Below are positions 54,970-62,929 of a DNA stretch of 64,000 nt, in pieces. How positions within the stretch are numbered: position 1 is the stretch's first letter; every line of letters begins with the position of its first letter. The DNA lies in assembly GCF_000227685.2 (NCBI RefSeq), contig NZ_CP007029.1, positions 2,144,501 through 2,208,500 on the forward strand, written 5' to 3'. Source of the DNA: Thioalkalivibrio paradoxus ARh 1. Its GTDB lineage: Bacteria > Pseudomonadota > Gammaproteobacteria > Ectothiorhodospirales > Ectothiorhodospiraceae. A program made the position numbers and the translations under genes. The notes under the pieces were generated by a model that saw only the letters and a list, made by a program, of their open reading frames with translations, made no database searches and was not told the origin of the DNA.

Positions 54970-56646
54970 TCAAGGATCCCGCGCCTCGACCGGAAACGAA
55001 CAGGGTGGACGTACGGGACGGTCGGATTGCCTTGCCGACAGGGCGCGGGCAAGCGCGTCGTCACGTCCATAGAGATCGGGACGGAACACGACCTCGCCAC
55101 GATCGTCGACACTGGCGGTCCAGTAGGCGATCAGGATCGGCACCGGGCGCGGCAGGTCGAAATTCACGGTGCGCCGGCCCGCGCGCAACGCCTCGGCCCG
55201 CTCGGCGCCGCCATCGGTCCCGTCGGCGACCAGCAGGTCGACGAGTTCCATCGCCCGTTCCACGCGGACGCAGCCGGAACTGAACGCACGCCGATCGGCG
55301 GCGAACAGTTGCTGATTCGGGGTGTCGTGCAGGTACACATGGAAAGGATTCGGAAACCGGATCGCGACCCGCCCCAGCGCGCTGTGCGGCCCCGCGTCCT
55401 GGCGGAGCACGATTCCACCAGGGTCGTTCCAGTCCACGCTTTCCGGCGGCAGTTCGTCCCCGGAACGATCGAGCACCCGAATCCGGTTGCGCGCCAGATA
55501 GCCGATGTCACGGCGGATCTCGGGCAGCGCGTCGTTACGCAGGATCGTCGGCGGGATGGTCCAGGTCGGATTGAACGTCAGGTGCGTGATCTCGGATTTC
55601 AGCAACGGGGTCCGGCGCGTCGGCTGACCGACCTGGGCTCGGGCGGTCCACACCGCCTCGCCCTGGCGGAAATACTGGATCCGCGCCCCGGCGACGTCCA
55701 CCAGCAGGTAGATATCTTTCTGCTCGCCGGCCAGCCAGCGCATCCGCTCGAGGTTGACCGCGATCTGCGCGCGCCGCGCCTCCGGCGAGGCGTTCAGCGC
55801 CTCGAGCGTCTCCGGCCCGACGATCGCATCGACCGCCAGGCCGTGCCTCTGCTGGAAGTCCGCGACGGCCTCGGCCAGTGCCGCGTCGTAGCGATCGACC
55901 GGACTGCCGGGGGTCGCGCCTCCGGCGAAACCCGCGGCCTCCAGCCGGGCGCGCAGCACCGGCACGCGCGGGTCGGTCATGCCCTCGCGCAACAGTGGCC
56001 CGCCCGGTATGGGCTGCCAATCGGCGTCGTCTGTCTGCTCCCGAAGCCGGCCGTGAGCTTTGCGCAGCAAGTGATACTCATGTGCAGCAGGACGGGCGCG
56101 AGCCAAACCGGCCGCCACGTCGTCGGGCGTGCTCACGGCGATGTCGATCAGTCGCTCGCAATCCGGCCGCGGCCGCTGCATGCCCGGGGCGCGCCACAAC
56201 GGTTCCACGTGGACCGGATCCAGGTTCCCGAGGGCCAGGTCGAAAAACGCACTCAGGTACGCATGCGTCGCCAGCAGGTCGAGACAGGCGGCATCCTGCA
56301 CCGACCGCTGCTCGTCTGCCCGACGCTCGCGGATCGCCGCGGCACCATACGCCCGCGGGTCCAGTCCGTCATCGACCAATCCGTCCAGGGCCTGAAGCAG
56401 CTGGTCCAGACGATCGCCCGTGCTCCAGAAGGGCCGGTAACCCCGCTCGCCATAGAAACGTGTGAGCGCGTCAAGCTCCCGCCACCGGGCCCCGGAGTCC
56501 GCCGGCATCGTGCAACCCATTGCCGCCGGGGTCGCGACCAGCGCCGCCCGAATCCGGTCTGCGGTGTGTTGCGCGCCGGGGTCGACGGCCGTTGCCACTG
56601 CAGGCAGCAGCGCAACGAGCGGAGCCAGCATGTATCCGAGCGCCAC
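54970..56646 (-). CDS. YcbB-like L,D-transpeptidase (peptidoglycan 3-3 crosslinking)
   Basis: A periplasmic L,D-transpeptidase. After a hydrophobic signal ('YMLAPLVALLPAVATAV') there is a helical region, a peptidoglycan-binding domain ('AVADFQQRHGLAVDAIVGPE' near 280) and the YkuD domain, with the catalytic His and Cys in 'HVYLHDTPNQQLF' and 'RAFSSGCVRVERAMEL' (Cys near residue 459). The size and order match LdtD/YcbB. The start is uncertain: the frame is open to an ATG at 56790, but the GTG at 56646 directly precedes the signal peptide and has GGGAGG about 14 bp upstream. It is divergent from the next gene. Confidence 0.87.
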   Translation of the reverse strand: MALGYMLAPLVALLPAVATAVDPGAQHTADRIRAALVATPAAMGCTMPADSGARWRELDALTRFYGERGYRPFWSTGDRLDQLLQALDGLVDDGLDPRAYGAAAIRERRADEQRSVQDAACLDLLATHAYLSAFFDLALGNLDPVHVEPLWRAPGMQRPRPDCERLIDIAVSTPDDVAAGLARARPAAHEYHLLRKAHGRLREQTDDADWQPIPGGPLLREGMTDPRVPVLRARLEAAGFAGGATPGSPVDRYDAALAEAVADFQQRHGLAVDAIVGPETLEALNASPEARRAQIAVNLERMRWLAGEQKDIYLLVDVAGARIQYFRQGEAVWTARAQVGQPTRRTPLLKSEITHLTFNPTWTIPPTILRNDALPEIRRDIGYLARNRIRVLDRSGDELPPESVDWNDPGGIVLRQDAGPHSALGRVAIRFPNPFHVYLHDTPNQQLFAADRRAFSSGCVRVERAMELVDLLVADGTDGGAERAEALRAGRRTVNFDLPRPVPILIAYWTASVDDRGEVVFRPDLYGRDDALARALSARQSDRPVRPPCSFPVEARDP

Positions 56647-56867
56647 CAATGGTTTTTCTCGCCTCCCGAGGCTGGTACCATACCACCCCAAACGCGGCGG
56701 CCGCAGAGGGGGCCACCGCATCCGAAACGGCGCCTGACGGTCTCCACGACCTTGTAGGTAGTGGACCGTCCGACGTGCCTTTGTGTTCATTTCGCGGGTG
56801 ATGCAGCGGGCGCTTTCGATTCCCTTGCCCGGCGACCCGCACCCACTCGATTTCAGGAAGGTACCGA

Positions 56868-57569
56868 ATGTCGATGACCCTGCGCCGGCTGCTGCCGGCA
56901 GCCGTAATCGCTCTCATGCTATGGAACCCGGCAGCCGCTGCGACCGCCGAACGCGCACTGGTGGAGGATCTCGCGGCTGAGGCCCCGGCGCTGAACCGCG
57001 TGGTGCTCGCCAAGGCCGTTGCGGCCATGCACTGCGCGGTTTCCAACGGAACGGGGCCAGCCGATCGGCTGGCAGTGATCGACTTCTCGCTGCCCTCGTC
57101 CGAGCCCAGGCTGTGGATCTTCGACCTGCCAGGCCGCGGACTGCTGCTCGAAGAACTCGTTGCCCACGGACAGGGCTCCGGCGACAACTTCGCCACCCAA
57201 TTTTCCAACGTCCGCGGCAGCCACCAGTCCAGCATCGGCCTGTTCCGCACCCAGGAAAGCTATTACGGGCGCCACGGCTACTCGCTGCGCATGGACGGGC
57301 TGGAACCCGGTATCAACGACAACGCGCGCACCCGCGCGATCGTGATCCATGCAGCCGATTACGTCGATCCCGCCTGGATCGAACGGCAGGGCCGAATCGG
57401 GCGCAGCCAGGGCTGCCCTGCCGTACGCCCCGAGATCGCGGACGCGGTCGTCGATCACCTGAAGGACGGGCAGTTCATGTTTTCGTACTATCCCGATCAG
57501 GAGTGGCTGGCGTCGTCCGAGTATCTGAACTGTCAGCCCGAGCTCCTGGCCAGCCTGATGCAGCCCTGA
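56868..57569 (+). CDS. Murein L,D-transpeptidase catalytic-domain family protein (YkuD_2 type)
   Basis: A 233-residue exported protein. The signal peptide ends near 'PAAAATA'. The domain has 'LLLEELVAHGQGSGDNFATQ', 'SSIGLFRTQESYYGRHGYSL', the conserved His in 'AIVIHAADYVDPAWIE' and Cys in 'GRSQGCPAVRPEIADAVV' (about residue 183), matching the second YkuD-type family. It may form or trim peptidoglycan crosslinks; activity is not proven for many members. It is divergently arranged with the YcbB-like gene, sharing the 56647-56867 region. Confidence 0.85.
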   Translation: MSMTLRRLLPAAVIALMLWNPAAAATAERALVEDLAAEAPALNRVVLAKAVAAMHCAVSNGTGPADRLAVIDFSLPSSEPRLWIFDLPGRGLLLEELVAHGQGSGDNFATQFSNVRGSHQSSIGLFRTQESYYGRHGYSLRMDGLEPGINDNARTRAIVIHAADYVDPAWIERQGRIGRSQGCPAVRPEIADAVVDHLKDGQFMFSYYPDQEWLASSEYLNCQPELLASLMQP

Positions 57570-57639: not shown

Positions 57640-57675
57640 GGATGCCGGCCGCCGACCGTGGCATCCTTGCGCGCC

Positions 57676-58086
57676 ATGCGCATCCTGATCCGAACCTTCT
57701 TTCGTGCACTGCGCGCAGTGCTGACCCCCATCCTGCTTCTGGGTGACAAGTTGACCACACCGAAGAGCATGGAGCGCGACCCGGCCGAACAGGCAAAGGT
57801 CGATGCCGAGACCCGGCGTCTGGCGCTGTATCAGTTCGTCGCCTGCCCGTTCTGCGTGAAAACGCGCCGCGCGATCAAACGCCTGGGTCTGAACGTCGAA
57901 CTGCGTGACGCGCAACTCGACCCCGAGCACCGCGAGGCGCTACTCGAGGGCGGCGGCAAGATTCAGGTGCCCTGCCTGCGCATCGAGCATCCGGACGGCC
58001 GGGTGGAATGGATGTACGAGTCCTCGGACATCATCCACTACCTCGAGGAACGTTTCGGCAACCCCGACGCCGCCGTCGCCCGCTGA
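57676..58086 (+). CDS. Membrane-anchored glutaredoxin-like protein
   Basis: A 136-residue protein. An N-terminal hydrophobic segment ('FFRALRAVLTPILLLGDKL') could anchor it in the membrane. The glutaredoxin-like fold has redox motif CPFC in 'LYQFVACPFCVKTRRAIKR' near residue 57, the cis-Pro region 'GGKIQVPCLRIE' and 'MYESSDIIHYLEERFG', typical of glutaredoxin/GST N-terminal domains. It is probably a thiol-disulfide or GSH-linked reductase facing the cytoplasm. The ATG at 57676 begins the hydrophobic segment. It appears monocistronic. Confidence 0.82.
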   Translation: MRILIRTFFRALRAVLTPILLLGDKLTTPKSMERDPAEQAKVDAETRRLALYQFVACPFCVKTRRAIKRLGLNVELRDAQLDPEHREALLEGGGKIQVPCLRIEHPDGRVEWMYESSDIIHYLEERFGNPDAAVAR

Positions 58087-58742: not shown

Positions 58743-59630
58743 ATGGGACTTAGCAACCCGTACGTGCAGGTGCTCGATATCGAGCAGACGCTGGCGGAGC
58801 TGAATGCGACGGTGGACCGGCTCCGTCAGGAGCGCGACGACCTCGAGATCGCGCTGACGACCGCGGTGGAACACGGTGATGCGATCGAGTCCCAGCTGGA
58901 GATGGCCAACCGGCAACTGCAGGCAGAAGTGCAGCAGCGGCGGCAGATCGAGCGCCAGCTGCGCGACCTTGTCGCCACCATCACCCAGAAGAGCCGCGAC
59001 CTGGAGCTGGTATTGCAGACCATTACCGAGCACGCCGACCAGATGGATCTGCAATGGCTAGGGCGCTACATCGAGTCCGAGAGCACGGCACGCCAGGATC
59101 CCCTGACCGGCCTGGCCAACCGGCGCAAGCTGGACGAAACGATAGCCAGCGAATGGATCCGTGCGCGTCGCCAGCAAAAGCCCCTTGCAATGGCGCTCTG
59201 TGACGTGGACTTTTTCAAGGCCTATAACGATCGTTATGGGCATCAGGCAGGGGACGAGTGCCTGCAGCAGATCGGCGACATCTTCCGGAACCAGGTTCAG
59301 CGCGAGGGTGATCTGGTGGCACGGTACGGGGGCGAGGAGTTCGTGGTGCTGCTGCCCGATACGGACACGGACGGCGCGAGGCGGGTCGGCGACCGCCTGC
59401 TCGAGGCCGTGGCACGAGCGGATCTGCTGCACGAGGCTTCACCGCTCGGAGGCCGTGTCACGCTGAGCATCGGGGTCGCTGCGACGGTGCCTCGCGGAGA
59501 CGACGAGGGACAACTGTTCGCCGAAGTGGATCGACTGCTCTACCAGGCCAAGCAGCAGGGACGAAACCGGGTCGTCAGCGGAACAGTGTCAACGGGGGAT
59601 ACGCATGATGGAAGAATACGGCCAAATTAG
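58743..59630 (+). CDS. Diguanylate cyclase (GGDEF) with coiled-coil N-terminus
   Basis: A 295-residue soluble enzyme that makes c-di-GMP from two GTP. Residues about 10-110 are a Gln/Arg/Glu/Leu-rich coiled coil ('DIEQTLAELNATVDRLRQER') with no membrane segment or sensor fold. The GGDEF domain starts at 'QDPLTGLANRRKLDET' and has the active site 'ARYGGEEFVVLLPDTD' near residue 196, so catalysis is expected. An RxxD inhibitory site (REGD) lies exactly five residues before GGEEF, so product inhibition is likely. It overlaps the next gene by 26 bp and heads the partner-switching operon, like SiaD with SiaABC. Confidence 0.93.
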   Translation: MGLSNPYVQVLDIEQTLAELNATVDRLRQERDDLEIALTTAVEHGDAIESQLEMANRQLQAEVQQRRQIERQLRDLVATITQKSRDLELVLQTITEHADQMDLQWLGRYIESESTARQDPLTGLANRRKLDETIASEWIRARRQQKPLAMALCDVDFFKAYNDRYGHQAGDECLQQIGDIFRNQVQREGDLVARYGGEEFVVLLPDTDTDGARRVGDRLLEAVARADLLHEASPLGGRVTLSIGVAATVPRGDDEGQLFAEVDRLLYQAKQQGRNRVVSGTVSTGDTHDGRIRPN

Positions 59631-60174
59631 AACCATCAAGCACAGCCGCGACACCGAGACCCTTAACCTGACATTCTGGCCGGGCTCGGTGCCGCTGCAG
59701 CAGCGCTGGCGCAACAACGGCCTGTCCGCCGATTTTCTGGGTGACTACGTGACCACCTTCTTCCCGCTGGACGACAACGATCCCGGTACGCGCCAGCGCC
59801 GGAACGAAGTTCGTGGCGCAGTCAGTTTCATCGCGAACGAAATGCTGGAGAACGCGATGAAGTTCCACGACAACTCGGTGTCCGAGCCGATCACCATGCA
59901 GATCCTGCTGGGGGCCGACCAGATCCTTTTTCAGGAGAGCAACTCGGCTGGGGCAAGAGCCACCGACACGTTCCGGGACTTCGTCCGCCGGCTGCTCTCG
60001 AGCGATCCTGGAGAACTCTACATCGAGCAACTCGAGCACGGCGATGACCGCAACGGCGGCGGCCTGGGCTACCTGACGATGATCAACGACTACGATGCCG
60101 AACTCGCCTGGCGCTTCGAACCCCTCGGCAACGACAGCTTTCGCGTGACCACCCAGGTGATTCTGAAAATCTGA
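59605..60174 (+). CDS. Histidine-kinase-fold regulator (SiaB / slr1658-like partner-switch kinase)
   Basis: A 189-residue cytoplasmic protein. 'FIANEMLENAMKFHDN' near residue 75 is an N-box of the GHKL ATPase type, and 'DDRNGGGLGYLTMINDY' near residue 153 resembles the glycine-rich lid. The family (DUF6272-type) includes SiaB, which phosphorylates a STAS-like partner. By analogy it should be the anti-anti factor's kinase here. It overlaps the diguanylate cyclase gene by 26 bp and its stop overlaps or abuts the STAS-like gene, so the stoichiometry is tightly coupled. Confidence 0.82.
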   Translation: MMEEYGQIRTIKHSRDTETLNLTFWPGSVPLQQRWRNNGLSADFLGDYVTTFFPLDDNDPGTRQRRNEVRGAVSFIANEMLENAMKFHDNSVSEPITMQILLGADQILFQESNSAGARATDTFRDFVRRLLSSDPGELYIEQLEHGDDRNGGGLGYLTMINDYDAELAWRFEPLGNDSFRVTTQVILKI

Positions 60175-60188
60175 TGGAGCGACCGCCA

Positions 60189-60533
60189 ATGCCGTCTCTT
60201 GCAGGTGAAGGATATTCAATCGAGTACGACGCTGCGGATCGCTGCGTCTGCCTGCGTGGGTCTCTGCGTCTCGGCGGCCTTTCGGAGTATGCCCCGTTGT
60301 CCCAAATGCTCGAGGACGCGCTGACAGACTGTTCGGACTTGACTCTGGATCTGACCGAACTCGAGTTCCTCAACAGTTCGGGAATTGCCACGCTGTCCAA
60401 GTTCGTGATCAATGCCCGCAACCGCCAGACCTGCAGGCTCACCATCCGCGGATCGGGTTCGATCGCCTGGCAGGGGAAGTCACTGAACAACCTCAAGCGG
60501 TTGATGCCAGCACTCGAACTGACTTTCGAATAA
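60189..60533 (+). CDS. STAS-like anti-anti factor (slr1659-like)
   Basis: A 114-residue single-domain protein. 'LTLDLTELEFLNSSGIATLS' matches the STAS/SpoIIAA phospho-site strand, with two candidate serines (near residue 67). The preceding 'CVCLRGSLRLGGLSEYAPL' is the first beta-hairpin. It should be phosphorylated by the upstream kinase-fold protein and dephosphorylated by the downstream phosphatase, and it may bind the cyclase. The ATG at 60189 has GGAG nine bases upstream; an ATG at 60174 overlapping the previous stop is also possible. Confidence 0.82.
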   Translation: MPSLAGEGYSIEYDAADRCVCLRGSLRLGGLSEYAPLSQMLEDALTDCSDLTLDLTELEFLNSSGIATLSKFVINARNRQTCRLTIRGSGSIAWQGKSLNNLKRLMPALELTFE

Positions 60534-60557
60534 CGCCCATGCCCCAGGAACCCTCAC

Positions 60558-62114
60558 GTGCATGCACGCAAGCCGGCGGCAGGTGACGCCGGGCCGCAGA
60601 TCCCCGTCACTGCCGGGCTGACCTTCCGCCAGGCCGCGGTCACCCTGGTGATCGTGCTGCTGCTCGGGCTGGCGGCAGGGCTGGTGGAACTGGGCGCGGA
60701 CTGGCGATCGATGCGTGCCGAGATCCAGGAACACACCTGGCGTACGCTGGAACTCGTCCGTGGCACTGCGGCCGAGGCCGCATTCCAGTTCAACGACGAT
60801 CTGGCCGCACAGGTGGCGGACGGGCTGTTCGCCCACCGGGAAATGCAGCAGGTGGTGCTCAGCGACAATTTCGGGGGCACCATCGCGCGACGCGACCGCA
60901 GCGATGTACCGCCGGCGGGTCCGCTGGTGGAACGGCTGTTCGGGGATATCACTGAGTACGCGATCGAACTGCGCCACGGCCTGCGACCGGGCGCCGCGGG
61001 CACGACGGTAGGCACCCTGCAAGTGACCCTGGATTCTGCCGAGATCGCGGCCCGGTTCATGGAACGCGGTTTCATGATCGTGGTTCTCGGTCTGGCGAAA
61101 GCCCTGGTCATCTCGGCACTGGTCGTGGTGATCTTCTATTTCATGATCACGCGCCCGCTGCTCGCCCTGCACAGCGCAATCACACGAACCGACCCGGGCC
61201 AGCCGGGTGAATGGCCCGTCCCTTCGTTCCGGTTCCACGACCGCGATGAACTCGGCCAGATCGTGCGGGGCCTGGACAACCTGATGCACGCGTTCCAGAA
61301 CGGACTGGAACAGCGGGACAAGGCTCGTGACGAGAACGCGCGGCTCGGCGCCGAACTCGACGTGTCGCGTCGAATCCAGCAGATCCTGCTGCCGTCCCGC
61401 GCAGAACTCGACGCGATCGAGGGGCTGGACATCGCCACCTTTATGGAGCCTGCCGCCGAGGTGGGCGGCGACTATTACGACGTCCTGAGCCACCCTGACG
61501 GGGTGCGCATCGGGATCGGCGATGTCACCGGACATGGGCTCGAGAGCGGCGTGGTGATGCTGATGACCCAGAGTGCGGTACGCACCCTGCTGACCAGCCG
61601 CGAGAGCGATATCGTGCGGGTGATGGAAGTGCTGAACAGCACGATCTATAACAACGTGCAAAGAATGGGCTCAGGCAAGAATCTGACGCTGGCCCTGCTC
61701 GACTACCGGCCGCGAGGTTCGGAACGCGCCGACCCGGAGCGGGGGCAGCTGCGCATCAGCGGCCAGCATGAGTCGGTGATCGTCGCCCGCCGTGACGGAA
61801 CGCTCGAGGTGATCGACACGGATGAACTCGGCTTCCCGATCGGCCTGGTCGAAGAAATGTCGCAGTTCGTCGGACAGGCGACGGTGGCGCTGGATCCGGG
61901 CGATGTCGTAGTGCTGTACACCGACGGCATCACTGAGGCGGCCGATCCCGAGCATCGGCTGTACGGCCTCGATCGTCTGCAAGCGGTGATTTCGGCGCAT
62001 CGCGCCGGCACCGCCGAGACCATCAAGGATGCGATCATCGACGACGTCAAGCGGCACATCGGGACACAGAAACTCTACGACGACCTCACGCTGGTCATCC
62101 TCAAACAGCAATAA
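60558..62114 (+). CDS. Membrane HAMP-PP2C/SpoIIE serine phosphatase (SiaA-like)
   Basis: A 518-residue inner-membrane sensor phosphatase. Two membrane segments (about 24-46 and 170-195) bracket a periplasmic domain of about 120 residues. A HAMP-like linker (about 195-250) and a short coiled coil lead to the SpoIIE/PP2C domain, whose metal-binding acids are visible: 'AEVGGDYYDVLSHPDG' near 303, 'IGIGDVTGHGLESGVVML' near 321 and 'VVVLYTDGITEAADPE' near 454. By analogy with SiaA it should dephosphorylate the STAS-like partner when the periplasmic domain is stimulated. It lies 24 bp after the STAS-like gene. Confidence 0.92.
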   Translation: MHARKPAAGDAGPQIPVTAGLTFRQAAVTLVIVLLLGLAAGLVELGADWRSMRAEIQEHTWRTLELVRGTAAEAAFQFNDDLAAQVADGLFAHREMQQVVLSDNFGGTIARRDRSDVPPAGPLVERLFGDITEYAIELRHGLRPGAAGTTVGTLQVTLDSAEIAARFMERGFMIVVLGLAKALVISALVVVIFYFMITRPLLALHSAITRTDPGQPGEWPVPSFRFHDRDELGQIVRGLDNLMHAFQNGLEQRDKARDENARLGAELDVSRRIQQILLPSRAELDAIEGLDIATFMEPAAEVGGDYYDVLSHPDGVRIGIGDVTGHGLESGVVMLMTQSAVRTLLTSRESDIVRVMEVLNSTIYNNVQRMGSGKNLTLALLDYRPRGSERADPERGQLRISGQHESVIVARRDGTLEVIDTDELGFPIGLVEEMSQFVGQATVALDPGDVVVLYTDGITEAADPEHRLYGLDRLQAVISAHRAGTAETIKDAIIDDVKRHIGTQKLYDDLTLVILKQQ

Positions 62115-62137: not shown

Positions 62138-62929
62138 ATGCGCAGGATCCGTGATTGCAACAGGCAGATGGTGGGCGCAACACTGGGCCTGCTGCTGTTG
62201 ATGCTGGCTGGCGGCCTCTTCCCCCAGTCAGCCGCCAAGGCCCTTGACGAGATCCAGTGGATCACCGAGGAGTTCGCGCCCTACAACTACACCGGCGCGG
62301 ACGGAGTACCCACTGGGATCGCGGTGGATGTGCTGGTCGCGATGTGGGACCGCCTGGGGCACGAACGCGCACCCGGCGACATCGAGGTTCTGCCCTGGGC
62401 ACGCGGGTACCGCATCGCCCAGGACCACCCCGGAACCTGCCTGTTCTCGACCACGATCACCGATGCGCGCCGGGAACTGTTCACTTTCATCGAGCCGCTG
62501 GTCGCTGCGAGGAACGCAATCATCGGACCGGTGGAACGGGAGTTCGAAATCCGCTCCATCGATGATCTCGCCCCGTACAGCGTGGGCGTAGTCCGCGACG
62601 ATATCGGCGACCAGTTGCTGCAACAGGCGGGTGCCAACAGCACCGTCGTGCGCACCGACTCGTGGCGCATCCTGCTGCGCATGTTGCAAGGCCAACGCTT
62701 CGACCTGATTTCCTACAACATCGACACCGCCCGCTGGAACATGCGCCGGCTGGACATGGATCCCTACGCCTACGAACCTCTGCTCGTGCTTCAGCAAGGC
62801 GTAATGGGCTATGCCTGCCACCCGGACACCAACCCAACTGCCCTCGCCCGACTGCAGACCGCGCTGGATGCCCTGCTCGCCGACGGCACAGTAGAACGCA
62901 TTACGCGAAGCTACCTCGGACCCAGATGA
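62138..62929 (+). CDS. Periplasmic solute-binding protein (SBP_bac_3 type)
   Basis: A 263-residue exported protein. The signal peptide ends near 'AAKA'. The mature part has the two-lobe extracellular-solute-binding pattern: 'IQWITEEFAPYNYTGADGVP' at the start, 'GIAVDVLVAMWDRL', 'IDDLAPYSVGVVRDDIGDQL' in the hinge region and 'LARLQTALDALLADGTVERI' at the end. No ABC permease or ATPase follows, so it is not part of an uptake system here. It sits 23 bp after the phosphatase gene and overlaps the next gene (ATGA), so a role as ligand receptor for the phosphatase is plausible. Confidence 0.87.
   Translation: MRRIRDCNRQMVGATLGLLLLMLAGGLFPQSAAKALDEIQWITEEFAPYNYTGADGVPTGIAVDVLVAMWDRLGHERAPGDIEVLPWARGYRIAQDHPGTCLFSTTITDARRELFTFIEPLVAARNAIIGPVEREFEIRSIDDLAPYSVGVVRDDIGDQLLQQAGANSTVVRTDSWRILLRMLQGQRFDLISYNIDTARWNMRRLDMDPYAYEPLLVLQQGVMGYACHPDTNPTALARLQTALDALLADGTVERITRSYLGPR

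Follow-up and report, generated by a model that had tools for sequence, protein, structure and literature searches.

A repeated stalk motif marks candidate output enzymes of slr1658/slr1659 partner switches, among them a diguanylate cyclase of Thioalkalivibrio paradoxus

In Pseudomonas aeruginosa, the SiaABCD system brings together a membrane PP2C phosphatase, a GHKL kinase, a small switch protein of the STAS fold and a diguanylate cyclase that has a stalk and two motifs for partner binding (PMC8457831, PMC7647112; here and below, statements on published systems follow the accessible parts of the papers cited). Similar roles fall to a group of adjacent genes in a 64,000-nucleotide stretch of the genome of Thioalkalivibrio paradoxus ARh 1 (contig NZ_CP007029.1, positions 2,144,501 to 2,208,500; this whole stretch is the window), which we analyse here. 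SiaC activates its cyclase when unphosphorylated, and its Thr68 inserts between the stalk helices (PMC8457831). STAS switch proteins also control diguanylate cyclases in HsbR-HsbA-HsbD of P. aeruginosa, where the phosphorylated protein, HsbA-P, is the active form (PMC5085249; likened here by description, not by sequence), and in BgrSTUWV-BgrR of Sinorhizobium (named in PMC8457831; likewise by description). Two of the families in the window are those of Slr1658 and Slr1659 of Synechocystis 6803. Disruption of Slr1658 affects recovery from iron limitation and pgr5 expression (PMC7555055), and the accessible text of that paper and related text describes no output enzyme or phosphorylation for the pair. 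In the RsbT/RsbU-N toolkit, which includes a Moorella cyclase, a partner acts on the coiled coil that precedes phosphatases, histidine kinases and GGDEF proteins, and exchangeable coiled-coil control across these proteins has already been published (PMC12143880). The signalling helix, a parallel coiled coil of about 40 residues, lies ahead of output domains of these kinds (PMC1592074).

We think it probable that the genes of the window form a five-gene partner switch, in which a STAS protein ruled by a kinase and a phosphatase docks on a motif in the stalk of the cyclase and switches the enzyme. The basis is comparative, namely family membership, the gene cluster, the motif and its co-occurrence with the STAS family, and from these we infer the activities of kinase and phosphatase, the docking, its polarity and the ligand. 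The logic is that of SiaABCD and the parts are different. The kinase scores 212.3 bits against the slr1658 superfamily of NCBIfam (cut-off 100) and 239.7 against slr1658_cyano (cut-off 200), and the STAS protein 138.8 against the slr1659 superfamily (cut-off 100). Matches to Pfam stay below threshold, both for the kinase (DUF6272, PF19788, 19.5 bits against 26.6, E=0.00083) and for the STAS protein (STAS_2, 26.1 against 29.2; STAS, 18.5 against 22.6), hence slr1658 and slr1659 are the right names and the DUF6272 label was dropped. Ordinary membership in SiaABCD was rejected since no component reaches a Sia cut-off: the cyclase scores 159.9 bits against the SiaD equivalog (cut-off 290), the kinase 12.3 against the SiaB family (85) and the phosphatase 44.1 against the SiaA equivalog (700). 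A Pfam scan of the STAS protein up to E of 10 gave only STAS_2 and STAS and no SiaC (DUF1987, PF09345), although HMMER filters may drop weak matches. The original prediction had indeed assigned the switch to the slr1658/slr1659 type and denied it a DUF1987 protein. The locus also departs from SiaABCD in its order, D-B-C-A in Sia letters (the Sia order being that named in the prediction), and in having an extra solute-binding protein.

The novelty of the locus appears to lie in the stalk. The cyclase has a GGDEF domain (E=2.7e-50) with an intact GGEEF active site at residue 196 and an inhibitory RxxD at residue 187, and thus has the GG(D/E)EF and RxxD sequences expected of an active diguanylate cyclase. 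Ahead of this domain, a helical motif with consensus DLE(I/L)xLxTxxEH(G/A/S)D occurs twice. Its copies have an invariant His and Asp, and their spacing is 53 residues in 28 of 30 two-copy GGDEF proteins (some being one gene fetched twice). SiaD has another stalk motif, with S50 and S82 only 32 residues apart (PMC8457831). The motif profile was made from 23 segments, mainly of proteobacterial cyclases, together with two hybrid kinases (L089, L091), a Campylobacterota cyclase (L120) and a cyanobacterial cyclase (L135), and it found cyanobacterial class III cyclases adjoining slr1658/slr1659 genes. According to Pfam, the carriers include GGDEF proteins, HisKA-HATPase-REC-Hpt hybrid kinases (L089-L091), PAS-class III cyclases (L104, L206), a PAS-kinase-REC-cyclase protein (L115), a GGDEF-EAL-motif-GGDEF protein (L205), PAS-only proteins (L099, L200, L212), a short protein with a sub-threshold HAMP (L216) and a PP2C (L094). 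The sequences thus suggest that a motif present twice in the cyclase stalk, and shared by varied proteins, marks the outputs of slr1658/slr1659 switches. It strengthens the earlier proposal of cyclase control through the coiled coil; the occurrence of the motif on other output enzymes had been overlooked. The literature search gave no paper on this motif or on control of a cyclase by slr1659 among the matches listed, with subscription journals mostly outside its reach.

The motif is rare and accompanies the switch genes. In the T. paradoxus genome an 89-residue stalk profile has one clear place, the next best match having E=0.38. At E<=1e-6 the motif occurs in 2 of 398 genomes of a phylum sample (G000 and G057; scoring covered at most 13 candidates per genome) and in 7 of 96 genomes of relatives, and in every one of these slr1658 adjoins it; slr1658 itself is above cut-off in 7 and 8 genomes, respectively. 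Several motif-positive genomes supplied rows of the profile, and the informative part of this control is therefore the absence of the motif elsewhere. The loci contain 73 different GGDEF proteins, of which 32 have the motif and adjoin the switch genes and 36 have neither property. Two carry the motif without being adjacent (a tandem and a divergent gene of the same cluster), and three are adjacent without the motif, one of them a contig-end fragment. A 40-residue version of the motif is present at E<=1e-3 in 23 of 29 chosen slr1658 genomes. Among 194 cyanobacterial genomes it occurs (E<=1e-6) in 29, and slr1658 passes its cut-off in 37 that include all 29 (p=1.4e-27; leaving out G493 and G501, a relative of one seed and the source of a seed, gives 3.9e-26). 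We then read 35 stretches around cyanobacterial motif proteins, some cut by contig ends. An slr1659 STAS gene lies on the same strand within 4 kilobases (kb) of 32 of the 41 motif proteins, in 23 cases within 250 nucleotides; 28 of the 32 are also near a kinase and 4 are not, and no motif protein has a kinase nearby and no STAS protein. Hence, the STAS protein is the constant neighbour of the motif.

In the mechanism that we propose, a small molecule would be sensed by the solute-binding protein and the periplasmic domain of the phosphatase, whose PP2C domain would remove the phosphate from Ser68 of the slr1659-type STAS protein; the slr1658-type GHKL kinase would add it. One form of the STAS protein, by analogy with SiaC most likely the unphosphorylated one, would dock on the two DLE...EHGD repeats, set the stalk into an active dimer geometry and thereby turn on the synthesis of cyclic di-GMP (c-di-GMP). 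Phosphorylation of Ser68 would release it. Kinase and STAS protein would be the constant core, to which different sensors and outputs can be fitted, the outputs being regarded as exchangeable because relatives carry the docking repeat on other enzymes as well. We give slightly better than even chances to the broader idea that the repeat is a portable docking tag, by which a single slr1659 STAS family controls any enzyme bearing it, be it a GGDEF cyclase, an EAL-GGDEF protein, a class III nucleotide cyclase, a hybrid histidine kinase, a PAS protein or another PP2C. A few tag-bearing enzymes of cyanobacteria are possibly unlinked to switch genes, and one switch may therefore broadcast to several outputs. 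If the motif is a docking site, sequence alone would tell which enzymes an slr1658/slr1659 switch controls, and two families to which the literature found assigns no output enzyme would gain a first testable target. Such a partner switch would have an addressable and transferable tag, with c-di-GMP, cyclic-nucleotide and two-component signalling on one core, and switch proteins of more than one kind would exert SiaABCD-type control of a cyclase stalk.

A number of observations weigh against the docking of the STAS protein on this motif, or against the polarity given above. The motif profiles were made from slr1658-adjacent proteins and some matches thus arise by construction, and the co-occurrence p-values overstate the association because related genomes are not independent. 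Above-cut-off slr1658 lacks the motif (E<=1e-6) in 5 of the 7 phylum genomes, in 1 of the 8 relatives (together L032-L036 and L065, the sole sign being a cyclase on the opposite strand in L065 that matches weakly, E=0.006) and in 8 of the 37 cyanobacterial genomes, and 6 of the 29 chosen genomes have none even at E<=1e-3. No same-strand motif protein lies within 3.5 kb in 21 of 80 slr1658 loci, some cut by contig ends, and the adjacent cyclase of L114 has no motif. The STAS family must therefore have other targets too. Conversely, 9 of the 41 cyanobacterial motif proteins are near neither STAS protein nor kinase, one of them being beside a PP2C. Finally, HsbA works with the opposite polarity (PMC5085249).

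This last point opens a variant of the proposed switch in which the phosphorylated STAS protein binds and activates the cyclase, so that the phosphatase turns c-di-GMP synthesis off. The sequences do not fix the polarity, and HsbA-P interacts with HsbD, which the S56A form does not (PMC5085249). Yet the solved folds nearest to our kinase and phosphatase include SiaB and SiaA, and in that system the unphosphorylated partner activates (PMC8457831), hence we hold the variant to be possible though unlikely. A diverged but otherwise ordinary SiaABCD operon would account for the four identical roles and the homologous kinase fold. We regard it as extremely improbable given the SiaA, SiaB and SiaD cut-offs, the unmatched SiaC, and the SiaABCD-like loci (L037-L039, L066-L072), whose cyclases do not match the stalk profile.

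The partner on the stalk might instead be the GHKL protein, freed from the STAS protein and docking as RsbT does on the RsbU linker (PMC12143880). One genome has a natural fusion of cyclase and slr1658 (L060), which would fit this; the fusion would equally bring the kinase beside a stalk-bound STAS protein, and the cyanobacterial neighbourhoods, with motif proteins near a STAS gene and no kinase and never the reverse, make kinase docking improbable. We give similarly poor odds to the stalk being a mere dimerising signalling helix, with co-expressed genes and a STAS protein acting elsewhere, e.g. on a sigma-factor system. Helices bearing the ERT signature are found very widely ahead of GGDEF, kinase and cyclase domains (PMC1592074), and several slr1658 loci lack a nearby motif protein. 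In an alignment of 16 rows read by eye, the stretch between the copies has an Arg in all rows, preceded by Glu in 12 and forming ERT in one (L103), and may itself be a signalling helix; no ERT was seen within the motif copies in these rows (the published profile was not run). Yet the copies are often repeated, have their invariant His and Asp and, unlike a general linker, are rare and track slr1658/slr1659. Compared with the toolkit of RsbT and RsbU-N, the element here is short, repeated and linked to a STAS family, and the accessible parts of the papers on it (PMC12143880) and on the signalling helix (PMC1592074) do not describe the DLE...EHGD motif.

The kinase and STAS proteins have conserved residues expected of a partner switch. 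The predicted fold of the kinase is nearest to SiaB, UsfX and SpoIIAB (Foldseek and VIA-align), in line with the GHKL fold initially proposed, and a profile match to a SiaB-like protein points the same way. Its N-box (E79-N83-A84-K86) is conserved, with E79 kept in 89 of 91 sequences and N83 in as many; Asn113 replaces the usual Asp of the G1 box, as in a SiaB-like protein. With a modelled fold of the SpoIIAB/RsbW type and the N-box Glu and Asn, the protein has the features of a partner-switching GHKL serine kinase, and would phosphorylate the STAS protein. The SpoIIAA-type serine strand noticed earlier is borne out by the predicted acceptor loop, in which Asn67, Ser68, Ser69 and Gly70 are each kept in 83-84 of 85 STAS sequences; by the local N-T-S pattern, Ser68 equals Thr68 of SiaC (PMC7647112). 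Searching solved structures by sequence with kinase and STAS protein gave nothing better than E of 0.6, and tblastn on viral contigs no relatives. In a quick tree of 85 of the 91 kinase sequences, with many open branches, output types cluster, and across the rows that have a motif protein next to them the type changes 10 times. Two slr1659 STAS genes accompany a single kinase in tandem at L145:4438-5168 and around a cyclase at L215.

On the input side, the phosphatase part of the HAMP-PP2C assignment stood (SpoIIE E=1.7e-39) and the HAMP match was sub-threshold. The PP2C domain is nearest to those of SiaA and RsbU, the structure matches covering this domain (predicted local distance difference test score, pLDDT, 74.8; predicted template modelling score, pTM, 0.47); the kinase and phosphatase domains thus appear to be structural relatives of those of SiaABCD. 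In the sequence search of solved structures, the cyclase aligns by residues 106-279, with the stalk outside, with 7e6g_A, listed as a GGDEF protein and presumably the SiaD structure. The N-terminal half of the phosphatase gives weak YfiN-type sensor matches (E=2.4e-6 and 4.9e-4); elsewhere this position is taken by dCache_3 (L096, L102) or 4HB_MCP (L060). A solute-binding protein comes next in all 11 beta- and gammaproteobacterial loci whose phosphatase starts with a sensor of the window's type (L076-L082, L085-L088; L076-L078 repeat the genes of L059, L064 and L061). It also follows the phosphatase in L083, where the phosphatase start was not read, a weak match lies further on in L103, and none was found at the threshold used in L090-L092, which have a related sensor. 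In the window, such a gene, of family 3 and with a signal-peptide-like start as judged by eye, begins 23 nucleotides past the PP2C gene. The four genes of the original prediction are all present between 58743 and 62114 on the forward strand, as an open reading frame check of the window confirmed; the prediction missed this fifth gene, and the functional unit extends beyond 62114 (Table 1).

Table 1. Features of the partner-switch locus, in window positions.
Feature	Position	Strand	Basis
Diguanylate cyclase (295 residues): N-terminal helical stalk and GGDEF, intact GGEEF and RxxD	58743..59630	+	Pfam, sequence reading
Stalk motif copy 1, residues 33-49, DLEIALTTAVEHGDAIE, candidate STAS docking site	58839..58889	+	Profile/alignment; sole clear place in genome
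Stalk motif copy 2, residues 86-102, DLELVLQTITEHADQMD, 53 residues past copy 1	58998..59048	+	Alignment
GGDEF catalytic domain, residues 117-276	59091..59570	+	Pfam
slr1658-family GHKL protein (189 residues), predicted serine kinase of the STAS protein	59605..60174	+	NCBIfam, predicted fold, conservation
slr1659-family STAS protein (119 residues), predicted phosphorylatable switch protein	60174..60533	+	NCBIfam, alignment
Ser68 codon, predicted phospho-acceptor, Asn67-Ser68-Ser69-Gly70 loop	60375..60377	+	Conservation; local N-T-S pattern against SiaC Thr68
Membrane PP2C (SpoIIE/RsbU-type) phosphatase, 518 residues from GTG: periplasmic sensor, sub-threshold HAMP, PP2C domain	60558..62114	+	Pfam, NCBIfam, predicted fold
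SBP_bac_3 periplasmic solute-binding protein, proposed ligand-sensing partner of the phosphatase	62138..62929	+	Pfam, conserved neighbourhood

The genes are tightly packed: cyclase and slr1658 overlap by 26 nucleotides, slr1658 and slr1659 by one (TGATG), and 24 nucleotides separate slr1659 from the PP2C gene. The length of 114 residues first given for the STAS protein applies from an in-frame ATG five codons in, the first ATG giving 119. The original prediction had staked its case on the four genes staying together in other genomes, and they do, in the same D-B-C-A order, which excludes a chance arrangement. Within the window's genus slr1658 is above cut-off in 1 of 30 genomes, and in another genus of the family in 5 of 5, all with the order cyclase, slr1658, slr1659, PP2C, solute-binding protein. 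In G057, which belongs to another family, the genes are cyclase, slr1658, slr1659, a binding protein of a different kind (PBP_like_2) and PP2C. In G427 the fusion of cyclase and slr1658 is one protein of 550 residues (L060, same contig as L093), and elsewhere (L074) it has a PP2C and, after it at the end of a contig, a weak slr1658-like gene. Among the best 80 of 247 relatives from a scan of genome contigs (in 26 of them the kinase lies within 2.5 kb of the end of a sequence stretch), a STAS protein is found in 75, a motif-bearing protein in 59, a PP2C in 57 and a solute-binding protein of the SBP_bac_3 kind in 12.

Some loci differ in arrangement. L032-L036 and L065 form a distant slr1658 group, in which slr1658 and slr1659 come after a PP2C of 800-900 residues, with no clear output protein that bears the motif; in L032, L033, L034 and L065 another, weak slr1658-like gene lies some 4 kb upstream. 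L073 (G423, of the window's genus) runs from PP2C to GGDEF with a weak slr1658-like gene, and its cyclase is rather similar to ours (E=3e-37) yet does not match the motif profile. In L261, L262, L263 and L266, motif-bearing proteins of about 710 residues directly follow an slr1659 STAS gene and no gene for a kinase lies within 4 kb, possibly a kinase-less second switch; L262, from the genome of L105 (Microcoleus vaginatus), is the same gene as L192, where the part read is PAS-GAF-HisKA. The motif-bearing PP2C of L094 (3892-4899, reverse strand) is short and convergent to slr1658, slr1659 and PP2C genes, and might be a feedback output. A Thiomargarita diguanylate cyclase (L141:10440-12746) has, by profile, five motif copies ahead of PAS and GGDEF domains.

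In a scan for promoters and terminators no site resembled a promoter, and a single terminator-like site lay upstream of the operon, against 2.2 in shuffles. Just upstream of the operon, Pfam identifies a glutaredoxin/GST-N domain protein (57658-58086), and further upstream are two open reading frames (54970-56790, reverse strand, and 56868-57569, forward strand) whose products resemble cell-wall proteins of the L,D-transpeptidase type.

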